Program-made: the position numbers and the translations under genes
Assembly (NCBI GenBank): GCA_029556545.1
Contig: JAKQEQ010000042.1
Coordinates: 144,729-208,728 of the forward strand
Reading direction: 5' to 3'
DNA length: 64,000 nt
DNA from: Candidatus Hydrogenedentota bacterium
GTDB taxonomy: Bacteria > Hydrogenedentota > Hydrogenedentia > Hydrogenedentales > JAGMZX01
Shown here: positions 58,845-64,000 of the stretch, in pieces
Layout of the letters: each line of letters begins with the position of its first letter
Position numbering within the stretch: the stretch's first letter is position 1
Notes under the pieces: generated by a model
Database searches by the model: none
The model's input: the letters and a program-made list of their open reading frames with translations, nothing else
What the model was told of the DNA's origin: nothing

Positions 58845-60170
58845 ATGTCCACGTCTTCCACGACTCCCCAAGCGGGCGAATCTTCTGGCGAGACGGTACA
58901 GTCCCCATTTTCCCGGCGCGATTTCCTGCGCAGCGCGGCGGCCGGCGCCGCGGCGGCGACCGCGTTCGGCATCCTGAATCCGGCGCGCGCGCAGGGCGGC
59001 GACGTATTGCGCGTGGGCCTCATCGGCTGCGGCGGGCGCGGCACGGGCGCGGCGCGCGAGGCGCTGCTCGCCGACCCGAATACGCAACTTGTCGCGGTGG
59101 CCGACGTGTTCGCGGACATGGCCGAGAACAGCGTGAAACGCCTGAAGACGGACCGCAAGATCGCCGACCGCGTCGTGGTGGACGACGGACACCGGTTCGT
59201 GGGGTTCGACGCCTATAAGGGCGTGATCGAGACGTGCGACGTGATTGTGCACGCGACACCGCCGGGCTTCCGCCCCCAACACCTGCGCGCGTGTGTCGAG
59301 GCGGGCAAACACGTGTTCACGGAGAAGCCCGTCGCCGTGGACGCGCCGGGCGTGCGATCGGTCATGGAGTCGTGCGCGATTGCCCGCGACAAGGGTCTCT
59401 GCGTGGTCTCGGGGCTCTGTTACCGGTACGAATTCGCGAAACAGGAGACCATCCAGCGCCTGCAGGACGGCGCCGTCGGCGATATCGTGGCGCTCCAGAC
59501 CACCTACAACACGGGCGGGTTGTGGCACAAGGGCCGCGAACCCGAATGGACCGAGATGGAGTATCAGCTTCGTAACTGGCTCTATTTCGACTGGCTCTCC
59601 GGCGACCACATCAACGAGCAGCACATCCACAGCCTCGACAAGATCATGTGGGTCCTGCGCGACCTTGCCCCGGCCAAGTGCACCGCGAGCGGCGGGCGCG
59701 CCCAGCGTACCGACCCGAAATACGGCAACATCTACGATCATTTCAACGGGGTCTACGAGTGGGCAAACGGCGTGCGCTGCTTCAACTCATGCCGCCAGTG
59801 GGAAAGCACCAGCACCGACGTCTCGGACTGGGTCTTCGGCACGAAGGGCGTCGCCAACATCCAGGATCACTACATCCGTACCTATGACGGCGTGGAATGG
59901 CGGCACGAGTCCAAGGGGCCGGACAACATGTACCAAAACGAGCACAACGCATTCCTAGCGGCCATTCGCAAGGGCGAGGCCCGTGTCGATGAGTACATGT
60001 GTTCGAGCACGCTCGCGGCGATCCTCTGCCGCATGTCCGCCTACACCGGCAAGACCATTACCTGGGAACAGGCCCTCAACTCGCAACTCGACCTCACCCC
60101 GAAAACCATCGACTGGGGCGACGTGCCCATGAACCCGCTCCCCGTCCCCGGACAGACCGAGTTCGTGTGA
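58845..60170 (+). CDS. Tat-exported Gfo/Idh/MocA family oxidoreductase
   Basis: The 441-residue protein has a twin-arginine signal (SRRDFLRSAAAGAAAATAFGILNPARAQ, residues about 25-52). It would therefore be exported folded with its NAD(P) cofactor. The oxidoreductase domain follows (VLRVGLIGCGGRGTGAAREALL, EKPVAVDAPGVR, HINEQHIHSLDKIMW). Secreted enzymes of this type attack glycosides in Planctomycetes and relatives by oxidising C3. AAGGAG precedes ATG 58845; the frame upstream to 58806 is unsupported. It is a single gene, followed 47 bases later by the restriction-modification pair, which differs sharply in base composition. Confidence 0.92.
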   Translation: MSTSSTTPQAGESSGETVQSPFSRRDFLRSAAAGAAAATAFGILNPARAQGGDVLRVGLIGCGGRGTGAAREALLADPNTQLVAVADVFADMAENSVKRLKTDRKIADRVVVDDGHRFVGFDAYKGVIETCDVIVHATPPGFRPQHLRACVEAGKHVFTEKPVAVDAPGVRSVMESCAIARDKGLCVVSGLCYRYEFAKQETIQRLQDGAVGDIVALQTTYNTGGLWHKGREPEWTEMEYQLRNWLYFDWLSGDHINEQHIHSLDKIMWVLRDLAPAKCTASGGRAQRTDPKYGNIYDHFNGVYEWANGVRCFNSCRQWESTSTDVSDWVFGTKGVANIQDHYIRTYDGVEWRHESKGPDNMYQNEHNAFLAAIRKGEARVDEYMCSSTLAAILCRMSAYTGKTITWEQALNSQLDLTPKTIDWGDVPMNPLPVPGQTEFV

Positions 60171-60217
60171 AGGAGCATCAGTAGACGGCAACTCATAAAC
60201 ACTGATGGAAGCACGAA

Positions 60218-61099
60218 ATGAACGAACCCAAACATCCCCTTGCGGAGGTCTTCGGCCATCTTACGATGGACCAATCGAACAGGGCCATTAGGTATCGCTC
60301 TCGTCGCCTTTGTCCGTTCAACAATAAAGTGCCAAACTGTACGAAAGACAAAGCGAAGAACCCGCTTGGCGTTTGTAGTCTGTTCCACCAAGGTAGGCCG
60401 ACCATAACATGCCCAATTCGTTTTCGCGAAGACTGGCTCATCACTGATGATGCCGCCACCTTCTTTTTTGGCAAGAACACTCACTGGAGTTCCTTGACAG
60501 AAGTCCGCCTGAACGACGCAAACGGGAGATCGGCAGGTAATATCGACGTCGTCTTAGTGGCCTATGACGACAAGGGGAAGGTCTTCGACTTCGGTGCACT
60601 CGAAGTGCAAGCTGTCTATATCTCCGGTAACGTGCGTGAGCCATTCGAGCACTACATGAGTAACCCAAGAGATCACGCATTGATGGATTGGTCCGATCAG
60701 CCGAATTACCCTCGTCCAGACTATCTTTCCTCATCTCGTAAGCGCCTTGCCCCGCAGTTGCTTTTCAAGGGCGGCATACTGCATTCCTGGCGAAAGAAAA
60801 CGGCTGTTGCTCTGAACAAGAGTTTCTTCGCTACCCTTCCGCCTCTAAGAACCGTGCCTAGAGCGAGGGCCGATATTGCGTGGCTAATCTACGATCTGCA
60901 ATTGATCCAGGAAGGAGAGCAGGAGAGGTTTAGACTGACGAAGATCGATGAAGTGTTCACCGCATTTCAACCGGCATTGCTCTCAATCACCAGCCCGGTG
61001 CCGGGAAACATAGATGATTTTGTGAGGCTACTTCAGGAAAAGCTTGACGAGCAACTTGAAAACCCGCCGGTCAACAAGAGCATTGAAAGGCCTTTCTGA
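60218..61099 (+). CDS. NotI-family restriction endonuclease
   Basis: The 293-residue protein is clearly related to NotI. It has the cysteine-rich PFNNKVPNCTKDKAKNPLGVC region with Cys32, Cys41, Cys53 and Cys65 (ITCPIRF), which in NotI binds iron. The nuclease site Asp110 (GNID), Glu129-x-Gln131 (LEVQ) has the D...ExQ form of NotI's PD-(D/E)xK fold. It is shorter than NotI (383). Base composition is near 50% GC, well below its surroundings, with AGA and ATA codons. The adenine methyltransferase gene starts two bases after its stop, so the two form a type II restriction-modification system acquired by transfer. Its recognition sequence is unknown. Confidence 0.87.
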   Translation: MNEPKHPLAEVFGHLTMDQSNRAIRYRSRRLCPFNNKVPNCTKDKAKNPLGVCSLFHQGRPTITCPIRFREDWLITDDAATFFFGKNTHWSSLTEVRLNDANGRSAGNIDVVLVAYDDKGKVFDFGALEVQAVYISGNVREPFEHYMSNPRDHALMDWSDQPNYPRPDYLSSSRKRLAPQLLFKGGILHSWRKKTAVALNKSFFATLPPLRTVPRARADIAWLIYDLQLIQEGEQERFRLTKIDEVFTAFQPALLSITSPVPGNIDDFVRLLQEKLDEQLENPPVNKSIERPF

Positions 61100-61101
61100 A
61101 G

Positions 61102-62121
61102 ATGTCATCCGCGAAGCAAGAGTTCTTATTCCCAGAGCACGAGTATACGACCAGACACGACTCGCCCAAACCCGTGAACGTTGCTTCGGTACCCCAGAGG
61201 AGTCCATTCAGATACCCAGGTGGCAAGACGTGGTTCGTGCCCACGTTTCGGAAGTGGATTGGGTCTATGCATCAGAGGCCGCGACTTCTTGTCGAACCTT
61301 TTGCGGGAGGGGGTATCATAAGCCTGACGGCATTGTTTGAGGACTTAGTTGACTCAGTCCTAATGATTGAACTTGACGAAGAAATTGCCGCTGTATGGCA
61401 GGCAGTCGTGCATGGGGACTCAAAATGGTTAGCAAGAAGAATTCTCAACTTCGAATTGACACGTGAAACCGTGCTCGACGCAGTGTCAGCGTGCGCTAAA
61501 TCAACAAGAGAACGCGCATTTCAAACCGTTTTGAAAAACCGGACTTTTCACGGAGGGATATTGGCCGATGGCGCCGGCTTGCTGAAATACGGAGAAAATG
61601 GAAAGGGAATACGCTCGCGATGGTATCCGGGGACATTGGCGAGAAGATTCGAAAACCTCGATGTCGTACGACCTCGGATAGAATTCCGTTGCGAGGATGG
61701 GTTGAGAGCGGTTCGTGAGTACGCTTCAGCTAGTGATGTGGTGTTTTTCATTGACCCGCCCTATACCGCGGGAGGAAAGAAGGCGGGCAGACGTCTTTAT
61801 CGTCATTGCGAAATCGACCATGAGGACCTCTTCTCGGCGTGCGAGGCCATCAGAGGCGATTTCATCCTGACGTATGATAATGCTGAAGAAGTGCGGGCTC
61901 TGGCGCGTCGTCACGAGTTTCAGATGCGCTTGATTCCGATGACCAATACGCATCATGCGAGAATGGAAGAACTTGTAATTGGAAAGAACCTCGCTTGGCT
62001 GGATGGACTACCCGCAGTCCGAGAGCCAAGAGGGCAATATGGGAAATCCAAGAGATCAACGAAGCGATCAAAGGCACAAGCGTATCGAAAGAAGAAGCCT
62101 ACGCCTAATACTCGCAAATAG
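61102..62121 (+). CDS. D12-class N6-adenine DNA methyltransferase
   Basis: A 339-residue Dam-like enzyme that protects the host site of the restriction pair. Motif X is FRYPGGK (36-42), motif I is VEPFAGGG (64-71), and motif IV is FIDPPYTAGG (217-226), the DPPY that marks N6-adenine (or N4-cytosine) methylation. The layout X-I-IV and the FxGxG form place it in the D12 class, so adenine is most likely. The C-terminal tail is very basic (KSKRSTKRSKAQAYRKKKPTPNTRK). GC content is low like its neighbour's. It begins two bases after the endonuclease stop. Confidence 0.92.
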   Translation: MSSAKQEFLFPEHEYTTRHDSPKPVNVASVPQRSPFRYPGGKTWFVPTFRKWIGSMHQRPRLLVEPFAGGGIISLTALFEDLVDSVLMIELDEEIAAVWQAVVHGDSKWLARRILNFELTRETVLDAVSACAKSTRERAFQTVLKNRTFHGGILADGAGLLKYGENGKGIRSRWYPGTLARRFENLDVVRPRIEFRCEDGLRAVREYASASDVVFFIDPPYTAGGKKAGRRLYRHCEIDHEDLFSACEAIRGDFILTYDNAEEVRALARRHEFQMRLIPMTNTHHARMEELVIGKNLAWLDGLPAVREPRGQYGKSKRSTKRSKAQAYRKKKPTPNTRK

Positions 62122-62313
62122 CGTCCTGCTCCGCTCACATCGGATCGCACAATCTCTCCTAACGTAAGGTTTGGAGTCCCACGAGAGCAGGATTAGGGTC
62201 TTGCGCCATCTGCCAAGACACACCGTCTCGCGGCGGCTTTCGATGCGGCAATTGTTCAGCACCCCCTCGCTGACGTTCTCAATGATGGCTTGTGGACGGC
62301 GGTTCCCAGCGTA
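62122..62313. other. Gap between the methyltransferase and the xxAxG-repeat gene
   Basis: These 192 bases show no gene, promoter or terminator that I can support. Base composition is intermediate, so this is probably the right edge of the transferred segment. Confidence 0.4.
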
Positions 62314-63240
62314 TCATTGTCTCAGGAGACTCCTCCAGGGCAGGGCAAGCCCGCCTTGGGTCCAGAGCCCGATGGCGAGGCCGCCGATGGCGTAGCCGCC
62401 TATGGCCATACCGCCGAGGGCAAGCCCCCCGACAGCGAGGCCGCCCATCGCGATGCCGCCGATTGCCGCGCCGCCCATGCTGACCACGCCGAGGGACACG
62501 CCGCCGGTCGTGACGCCGCCCACAGCGACGCCGCCCATCGCGATCACGCCCACGGCTGTGTCGCCGATGGCGATGAACCCGCGCGCCTTCCCGCGCAAGC
62601 CGTCGGGGCCCGGCCCCATCGCAACGACAATGAACGGCAGGCCGAACAGGGTCGCGGACGACCGGTAGCGTATGCCGCCGGTGTACGCCCGTGCGCCGCC
62701 CGCCGCGACCGCTTGCTCAGTCTCGCCGGAGCACACTTCGCGGATGATGCGTTCGAGCGCGCGTGCGGCGGGCCTGCGGTGCCCGGCGGCGAGTATCCAC
62801 GGCCAGAGCACGCCCCAGAACGCAATCATGCCGTAGAAAACGAGCGCGCCGCCGCTCGTCTTGACGAGGCCGGGATTCAGGAAGGCAAACACGACGTAGC
62901 CCGCGAGCAGGCACGCGCACAGTCCGCCGCACAGCAGCACGCAATACAGGAGCCAGCTCCAATACGTGAACCGGTACGCGATGGTCCGCTCGTCCATACG
63001 CTGGAGCGTCACCTCGTTCAACCCAATATTGATCGACGTCAGGAAGTCGTCCGCCCCGAAGTGAATCACGTGACGGCCCAGGCTGCGCACGCTGTACGCC
63101 GCGCGCCGCCGGTCGCCCGGCAAAAGCAACCCCCCATGCACGCGCGCGGCCATGCGCTCGACAAAGTCCTCCGGCGCATCCTCGACTTCGAGGATGCCGT
63201 CGCATTCGGGTATGAAGGCGCGCATGACCGGCGGCCTCAT
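62314..63240 (-). CDS. Membrane protein with fifteen tandem xxAxG pentapeptide repeats
   Basis: The 308-residue protein has a soluble N-terminal part (about 1-90), two hydrophobic segments (LLYCVLLCGGLCACLLAGYVVFAFL; ALVFYGMIAFWGVLWPWILA), a short loop and then residues 222-296. That last stretch is an unbroken run of fifteen five-residue units of form x-[hydrophobic]-A-[VILM]-G (GVAVG, GIAMG, GLALG, GMAIG...), with A, S or T at the third position. The period equals that of pentapeptide repeats but is uncharged. It ends LPWRSLLRQ. The start ATG overlaps the stop of the upstream gene (ATGA). I recognise no family; the frame is open further upstream but that is the neighbour's complement. Confidence 0.78.
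   Translation of the reverse strand: MRPPVMRAFIPECDGILEVEDAPEDFVERMAARVHGGLLLPGDRRRAAYSVRSLGRHVIHFGADDFLTSINIGLNEVTLQRMDERTIAYRFTYWSWLLYCVLLCGGLCACLLAGYVVFAFLNPGLVKTSGGALVFYGMIAFWGVLWPWILAAGHRRPAARALERIIREVCSGETEQAVAAGGARAYTGGIRYRSSATLFGLPFIVVAMGPGPDGLRGKARGFIAIGDTAVGVIAMGGVAVGGVTTGGVSLGVVSMGGAAIGGIAMGGLAVGGLALGGMAIGGYAIGGLAIGLWTQGGLALPWRSLLRQ
62338..62577 (-). repeat. Coding tandem repeat of 15-bp units (x-hydrophobic-A-hydrophobic-G)
   Basis: Sixteen units of 15 bases in register; fifteen encode peptides ending in Gly and the last ends in Pro. Codon choice varies between units, so the repeat is old at protein level rather than a fresh DNA duplication. Confidence 0.85.
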
Positions 63241-64000
63241 CGGCCTGATTCGCTTATGTCGAGGGCCGCCATCCGCTGTTCTTCGGCCATGCGGTACCGC
63301 TGACGGAACATGCGCCAGCCCATCGCGCCGAGCAGGAGCGCGATCGCGCCCAACAGCAGCGGCGGATAGGCGCGCCACATGGCCCCGCCACGCGCCAGAG
63401 TCGATCCGCCATATACGATTAAGGCGATGCCGACGGCCATGTACCCCCAAGCCGTACCCAGCACGAGGCCGCGCGCGCGGCCCTTGCCCGCCAACAACGC
63501 GCCCGCCGCGCCCCAGAGCCCGGAAAGGATGCCCAAGGCCGCCCCCGCCATACCCCACATCACCCCGAGACGCGCCGCAGCCATGCCCGAATCAAGAACA
63601 AGCGGCTTCTTCCAGAGCGAGAGGTTGCGCAGCGCGACCGTGCCCGTACCCTCGGCATAGATTCCAAGCCACACCTTCTCAGGCCGCTGTCCCGATTCGA
63701 GAAAGAAGGGCGCCGCGGATGCGCGGAACGCCGTTGTGGCGCGTACGTACTCTTGCAGTGACCGCGAGAAGTACCGCGGTTCTCCGGGAAAGGCGCACAC
63801 CATTTCGAGACTGCCGGCGCCGCGCAGGTCTTCACTCGCAATCTCCGCCCGGTATTCCAGCACACAGTTTTCGACATCGGACAAGGGAACCTCGTACAGC
63901 GGGAAAGACGTCGGCCCGGGCGCCGCAAACGTGATTCGGACCTCGCCGATGGCCGGGTCTACCTGGACGGCGGTTCCTTCGGGCAACTCATTCGAGAACG
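63237..64000 (-). CDS. Membrane protein of unknown function, cut off at the window edge
   Basis: The frame is open through the last base, so the start lies beyond the window; 253 residues or more are visible. The visible N-terminal half (about 1-130) is soluble and beta-rich (VRITFAAPGPTSFPLYEVPLSDVENCVLEYRAEIAS...), like a carbohydrate-binding or jelly-roll-like domain outside the membrane. The C-terminal half has four or so hydrophobic segments (VMWGMAGAALGILSGLWGAAGALLAG, GTAWGYMAVGIALIVYG, YPPLLLGAIALLLGAMGW). I do not recognise the family. It overlaps the xxAxG-repeat gene (ATGA), and the two are probably one functional unit. Confidence 0.65.
   Translation of the reverse strand, partial: FSNELPEGTAVQVDPAIGEVRITFAAPGPTSFPLYEVPLSDVENCVLEYRAEIASEDLRGAGSLEMVCAFPGEPRYFSRSLQEYVRATTAFRASAAPFFLESGQRPEKVWLGIYAEGTGTVALRNLSLWKKPLVLDSGMAAARLGVMWGMAGAALGILSGLWGAAGALLAGKGRARGLVLGTAWGYMAVGIALIVYGGSTLARGGAMWRAYPPLLLGAIALLLGAMGWRMFRQRYRMAEEQRMAALDISESGR

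Follow-up and report, generated by a model that had tools for sequence, protein, structure and literature searches.

A NotI-like nuclease gene (R) and the D12-class methylase gene (M) that follows it very probably form a complete Type II restriction-modification module, gained by horizontal transfer, in the window, the 64-kb stretch of DNA that we analyzed as a whole. R would act as a NotI-fold endonuclease of the PD-(D/E)xQ type, in which the Cys4 metal site has a structural role, and it presumably works as a homodimer that cleaves incoming, unmodified DNA at a short palindrome. M, an alpha-class amino-methyltransferase presumably co-transcribed with R, would modify the R site in host DNA. 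The system is ordinary in kind, a Type II restriction-modification pair using the NotI fold, and is a well-supported new member. Few relatives of NotI, a widely used rare cutter, have been characterized, and the pair belongs to a compact, widely transferred NotI-like family with linked methylases, some of them from thermophiles. Re-reading of the sequence at 60218-62121 gave the same coordinates and motifs as the initial annotation (Table 1).

Table 1. Features of the window (plain positions) and methylase-less NotI-like loci of Chlorobiaceae (positions within the named locus).
Feature	Position	Strand	Basis
R gene, NotI-family Type II restriction endonuclease, 293 aa	60218..61099	+	PF12183, AlphaFold2 fold, ends matching relatives
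M gene, D12/alpha-class DNA amino-methyltransferase, 339 aa; N6-adenine or N4-cytosine	61102..62121	+	PF02086, AF2, motifs
Cys4 metal-site region, R residues C32-C65 (iron site in NotI)	60311..60412	+	Conserved Cys
Predicted catalytic residues E95, D110, E129-x-Q131 of R	60500..60610	+	Alignment to NotI
DPPY catalytic motif IV of M, residues 218-221	61753..61764	+	Sequence
Low-GC acquired insert; right edge approximate	60171..62290	.	GC and comparison with G001
Methylase-less Chlorobiaceae locus	L074:7497-8834	+	
Methylase-less Chlorobiaceae locus	L074:9472-10554	-	
Further methylase-less Chlorobiaceae loci	L072, L075, L076, L078, L081, L085, L129-L136, L141, L143-L149		

R scores 208.5 bits against the NotI family model PF12183 (E=1.2e-61; curated cut-off 22). 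A single-sequence phmmer search of R against the PDB gave no match, and the R family profile matched NotI (3bvq/3c25) as the sole entry among the PDB sequences (E=2e-6). The AlphaFold2 model of R, built from 76 sequences, has a pLDDT of 85 and a pTM of 0.84, its least reliable part being the Cys loop near residues 35-45. Its only significant matches among solved structures are NotI 3c25 and 3bvq (E 4.8e-10 to 4e-9), with TM scores of 0.63-0.65 on the query (3c25_A, E=4.8e-10, TM 0.63). R and NotI share the fold, the E/D/ExQ active site and four conserved cysteines, although they are very distant, with ~14% identity over the fold alignment and lengths of 293 and 383 aa, respectively. The Cys region of R reads CPFNNKVPNC-TKDKAKNPLGVC-SLFHQGRPTITC and is aligned with that of NotI by the HMMER profile, although the second Cys is offset by two residues in this alignment; R may bind iron there. 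All 24 diverse relatives compared have C32, C41, C53, and C65 as well as E95, D110, E129, and Q131, and the four cysteines are kept in 75 of 76 close relatives. In the family-profile alignment, the four acidic and glutamine residues correspond to E145, D160, E182, and Q184 of NotI, in which Q replaces the usual active-site K (PMC4081073). The same E-D-E-Q set is conserved in all 58 nucleases adjoining a full-length methylase. The four-cysteine region and D...ExQ site of NotI, which the initial annotation had recognized in R, were thus borne out by PF12183, the fold, and the alignment, and the active-site residues can be aligned with those of NotI. The start and end of R are the same as in relatives 63-81% identical to it.

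M scores 36.6 bits against PF02086 (E=5e-9; cut-off 22), a weak D12 score that reflects the divergence of its subfamily. Against the 'dam' subfamily model TIGR00571, it reaches 35 bits where the cut-off is 115, and M is therefore no Dam ortholog. Its motifs are ordered RYPGGK, EPFAGGG, target region, and DPPY; RYPGGK, EPFxGGG, and DPPY (D218 P219 P220 Y221) are invariant in 58 relatives. The AF2 model of M has a pLDDT of 78.5 and is poor at the N-terminus, in a C-terminal stretch, and at residues 159-168. The model ranks M.CbeI of Caldicellulosiruptor bescii (7m6b) first by fold, followed by Dam, DpnM, and T4 Dam. Sequence comparison also places M.CbeI first: the M family profile matched only 7m6b among the PDB sequences (E=7e-9), with Dam not reaching 1e-3, and hhalign returned E=5e-11 with M.CbeI versus 2e-4 with E. 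coli Dam. M.CbeI is thus the closest solved relative by both sequence and fold, and like M it carries DPPY and is the partner of a Type II endonuclease (CbeI, which cuts GGCC), but its identity to M is low, about 18-23%. M does not group with unrelated phage Dam enzymes, since it shares 51-68% identity with other NotI-partner methylases and only 22-33% with those of phages. A DPPY methyltransferase of the D12 class next to R, as first described, is therefore confirmed, with 'D12' giving the enzyme class and not the base. The best PADLOC match of M was PD-Lambda-5_B (E=1e-38); this protein belongs to a defence system of prophages, which has been described as RM+Abi in compacted form (PMC9519451). 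We read this match as methylase kinship and not as evidence that M is part of the same system.

The two genes are separated by 2 nt and stand in a low-GC island. Both have a GC content of 0.51 versus 0.65 for the window, and their GC3 is 0.52-0.59 compared with 0.85 in the neighboring genes. The cassette is the sole stretch of such length with GC of 53% or less in the 64 kb. The upstream gene, of the Gfo/Idh/MocA type by sequence reading, ends at 60170, and R begins 47-48 nt beyond. The match to G001, a genome of the same genus, extends up to 60170 and then ends, which sets the left edge of the insert; neither R nor M was found in G001. We sought a clean empty site in G001, and the left edge was clear, but the right flank is non-syntenic, so such a site could not be demonstrated. 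On that right flank, the ORF at 62314-63558 (-), 414 aa, has a C-terminal part in which short G-rich repeats (AIGGIAMGGLAVGGLALGG...) follow one another.

With each species represented by one genome, the scan gave 175 relatives of R, and the best 80 of these (63-81% identical) were used. In 61 of the best 80, R adjoins an M ORF of full length (290 aa or more), and the remaining relatives are mostly at contig ends or have broken frames. The R-M spacing in 57 complete pairs ranges from -53 to +7 nt with a median of 1, and the pairwise distances of R and M are correlated (Mantel r=0.87, 0/999 permutations). Hosts of the best 80 include Planctomycetota, Thermodesulfobacteriota, Nitrospirota, Verrucomicrobiota, Chlorobiota, Omnitrophota, Elusimicrobiota, Deinococcota, Acidobacteriota, and the archaeal Methanothrix, among others. 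Close relatives also occur on plasmids and in viral contigs, and all four relatives from viral contigs have both R and M. In the phylum of the window, where 68 genomes were searched, the M family is found in the window's genome only, besides two weak matches of 25-34%, and other PF12183 matches are at most 47% identical to R. The pair is thus very probably a Type II restriction-modification unit that moves horizontally. The recent transfer that had been proposed from the low GC, the coupled genes, and the unrelated gene directly upstream agrees with the composition, the comparison with G001, and the distribution of relatives.

Several related loci have other arrangements. Intact-looking R genes stand without M at a few of them (L080, L087, and L073), so that, in assemblies at least, R can be found alone. 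At L080:219-1972 and L087:4246-6252, a NotI-like nuclease with an intact active site is followed by a HaeII-like endonuclease gene (PF09554) replacing the methylase, of which L087 retains just a 3' remnant. This arrangement is common to two phyla, and the two nucleases form one clade. In a genome of the same order as the window (G004, L115:4959-6636), a NotI-like nuclease 47% identical to R lacks a methylase, and the ORF after it is of the PLD type and weakly matches the NgoFVII endonuclease. The R-M pair itself was seen on two viral-classed contigs of 43-44 kb (L127:3757-5488 and L128:4001-5781), with R 58% and M 51-55% identical to those of the window.

The genes of the window might instead be decaying or domesticated and no longer serve restriction-modification. 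Such a fate seems to have befallen a sub-lineage in Chlorobiaceae. The methylase-less NotI-like genes of this group are monophyletic (100*) and nested with restriction-type genes of the same family. No methylase was found beside them, and the six host genomes hold none save one 25% match. Most copies have an N-terminal extension (169-272 aa), the group has S or N at R176, a position invariant in the 24-sequence NotI-family alignment, and catalytic residues are often changed (Q131H, E129D, E95D/A). The dN/dS values among the copies are 0.04-0.16, and the copies are therefore maintained under purifying selection. The copies often occur as adjacent convergent pairs. From these sequence features, the group looks like a restriction nuclease domesticated for DNA-binding or another role, that is, a lineage in which a restriction enzyme was apparently co-opted. 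It also provides an internal control for the full active sites of the 58 methylase-paired nucleases. The window has none of these marks: its frames are full-length, the catalytic and Cys residues are intact, the ends match those of relatives, and K175-R176 is retained. We thus consider decay or domestication of the window pair very improbable.

Public plasmid records already annotate a NotI-family gene beside a 'DNA adenine methylase', and we found no paper on a NotI-family nuclease paired with a D12 methylase in the literature searched. Thermus pTbrSNM4-1c, a Variovorax RA8 plasmid, Achromobacter pEST4011, and a 4-kb plasmid of Aeromonas veronii have the two-gene order of the window with methylases 51-57% identical to M; their nucleases are 66% (Thermus) or 28-32% (others) identical to R. 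The Variovorax and Aeromonas methylases are 51-53% identical to M while their nucleases are only ~30% identical to R. Other systems with nucleases of the same NotI family (pBN5 with Vsr, a Sedimenticola plasmid, Cronobacter pESA2, and Pseudomonas phage vB_Pae_U8) differ from the window in having a C5-cytosine methylase as guardian in place of the D12 enzyme. The nuclease of pBN5 (L094:2416-5227; C5 and Vsr) is 82% identical over its whole length to that of Variovorax (L096:2791-5025; D12), and the two group together in the tree (100*). They probably share one site, which would then contain C and be protectable by either methylase class. The swap is compatible with an A- and C-containing site protected by N6-adenine methylation or with a G+C-only site protected by N4-cytosine methylation. 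Where D12 and C5 partners are exchanged around nearly alike nucleases, the conserved part of a restriction system becomes visible.

The initial annotation took M for an adenine enzyme and concluded that the target contains A. This conclusion is not supported. M.CbeI is annotated as D12 adenine-specific and carries DPPY, yet it makes N4-methylcytosine in GGCC (PMC3425538, PMC8616854), and so does its homolog DmtB of Anabaena (PMC3425538). A D12/DPPY enzyme can thus have a target that need not contain A, and the chain from D12 to adenine to an A in the site is unsafe. The kinship of M and M.CbeI is distant (~20%), so the activity of M.CbeI does not demonstrate N4-cytosine methylation by M. The base modified by M is somewhat more likely to be adenine (at N6) than cytosine (at N4).

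We lean mildly toward the model of the initial annotation in its full form, in which M methylates adenine at N6 and the target contains A, which would give the NotI fold a new specificity. M belongs to the D12 family, Dam and DpnM are its next-best folds, and a site having both A and C would fit the C5/D12 partner swap. Against it, neither the class nor DPPY dictates base specificity (PMC3425538), and CAGCTG, the lone A-containing avoidance candidate, failed in hosts from other phyla. A somewhat less likely alternative is that M, like M.CbeI and DmtB, methylates cytosine at N4 and that the R site is G+C-only, NotI- or GGCC-like, with no adenine. It draws on M.CbeI as the sole solved structure matching the M family profile, ahead of E. 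coli Dam by hhalign and first by fold, on the N4-cytosine activity of that enzyme despite its D12-adenine annotation, and on the C5-cytosine methylase in one of the 82%-identical nuclease pair, which places a C in the site of the clade. The similarity to M.CbeI is only about 18-23%, however, and most characterized D12 enzymes are adenine-specific. We know of no motif that tells alpha-class N4-cytosine from N6-adenine enzymes. GGCC and GCGGCCGC are also depleted no more than other GC palindromes in host DNA. The broader proposal that the 'adenine-annotated' D12 methylases beside NotI-like nucleases across phyla are N4-cytosine enzymes guarding a G+C-only NotI-like site is more tentative still. 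If it held, the NotI fold would keep its site while swapping an N4-cytosine for a C5-cytosine guardian, and many 'DNA adenine methylase' annotations beside NotI-family genes would be wrong. The family offers a clear case in which to test whether the adenine-specific label of D12-class methylases is wrong. That NotI-like nucleases recognize more sites than known is plausible.

Site avoidance in host genomes did not reveal the target. GCGGCCGC, the NotI site, was not singled out by any avoidance signal; its O/E in pooled host DNA is 0.44, but other GC palindromes are just as low, and we rejected avoidance as an argument for it. We also set aside an apparent enrichment of GCGGCCGC over a reversed-pattern control in Chlorobiaceae genomes with the putatively domesticated gene: that control contains the depleted GCCGGC, and the counts against a Markov model were as expected (3 vs 3.0; 1 vs 0.8). 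For CAGCTG, 57 or fewer sites were present in 21 of 23 Chlorobiaceae genomes with an intact NotI-like gene versus 6 of 54 without (Fisher 1.5e-11, a value that ignores kinship and uses gene classes assigned in the present analysis). The window's genome has 162 CAGCTG sites versus 659 in its congener. In the window's phylum, however, many genomes that lack the gene are equally poor in CAGCTG, and 50 hosts from other phyla showed no general depletion (median 78 per Mb, with 8 of 50 under 25). CAGCTG is therefore not supported as the target, and its scarcity is likely a lineage effect or due to other R-M systems. CAGCTG is extremely rare in many genomes of Chlorobiaceae and of the window's phylum, with 9-50 sites per genome in many Chlorobiaceae, a rarity that the R-M pair does not explain.
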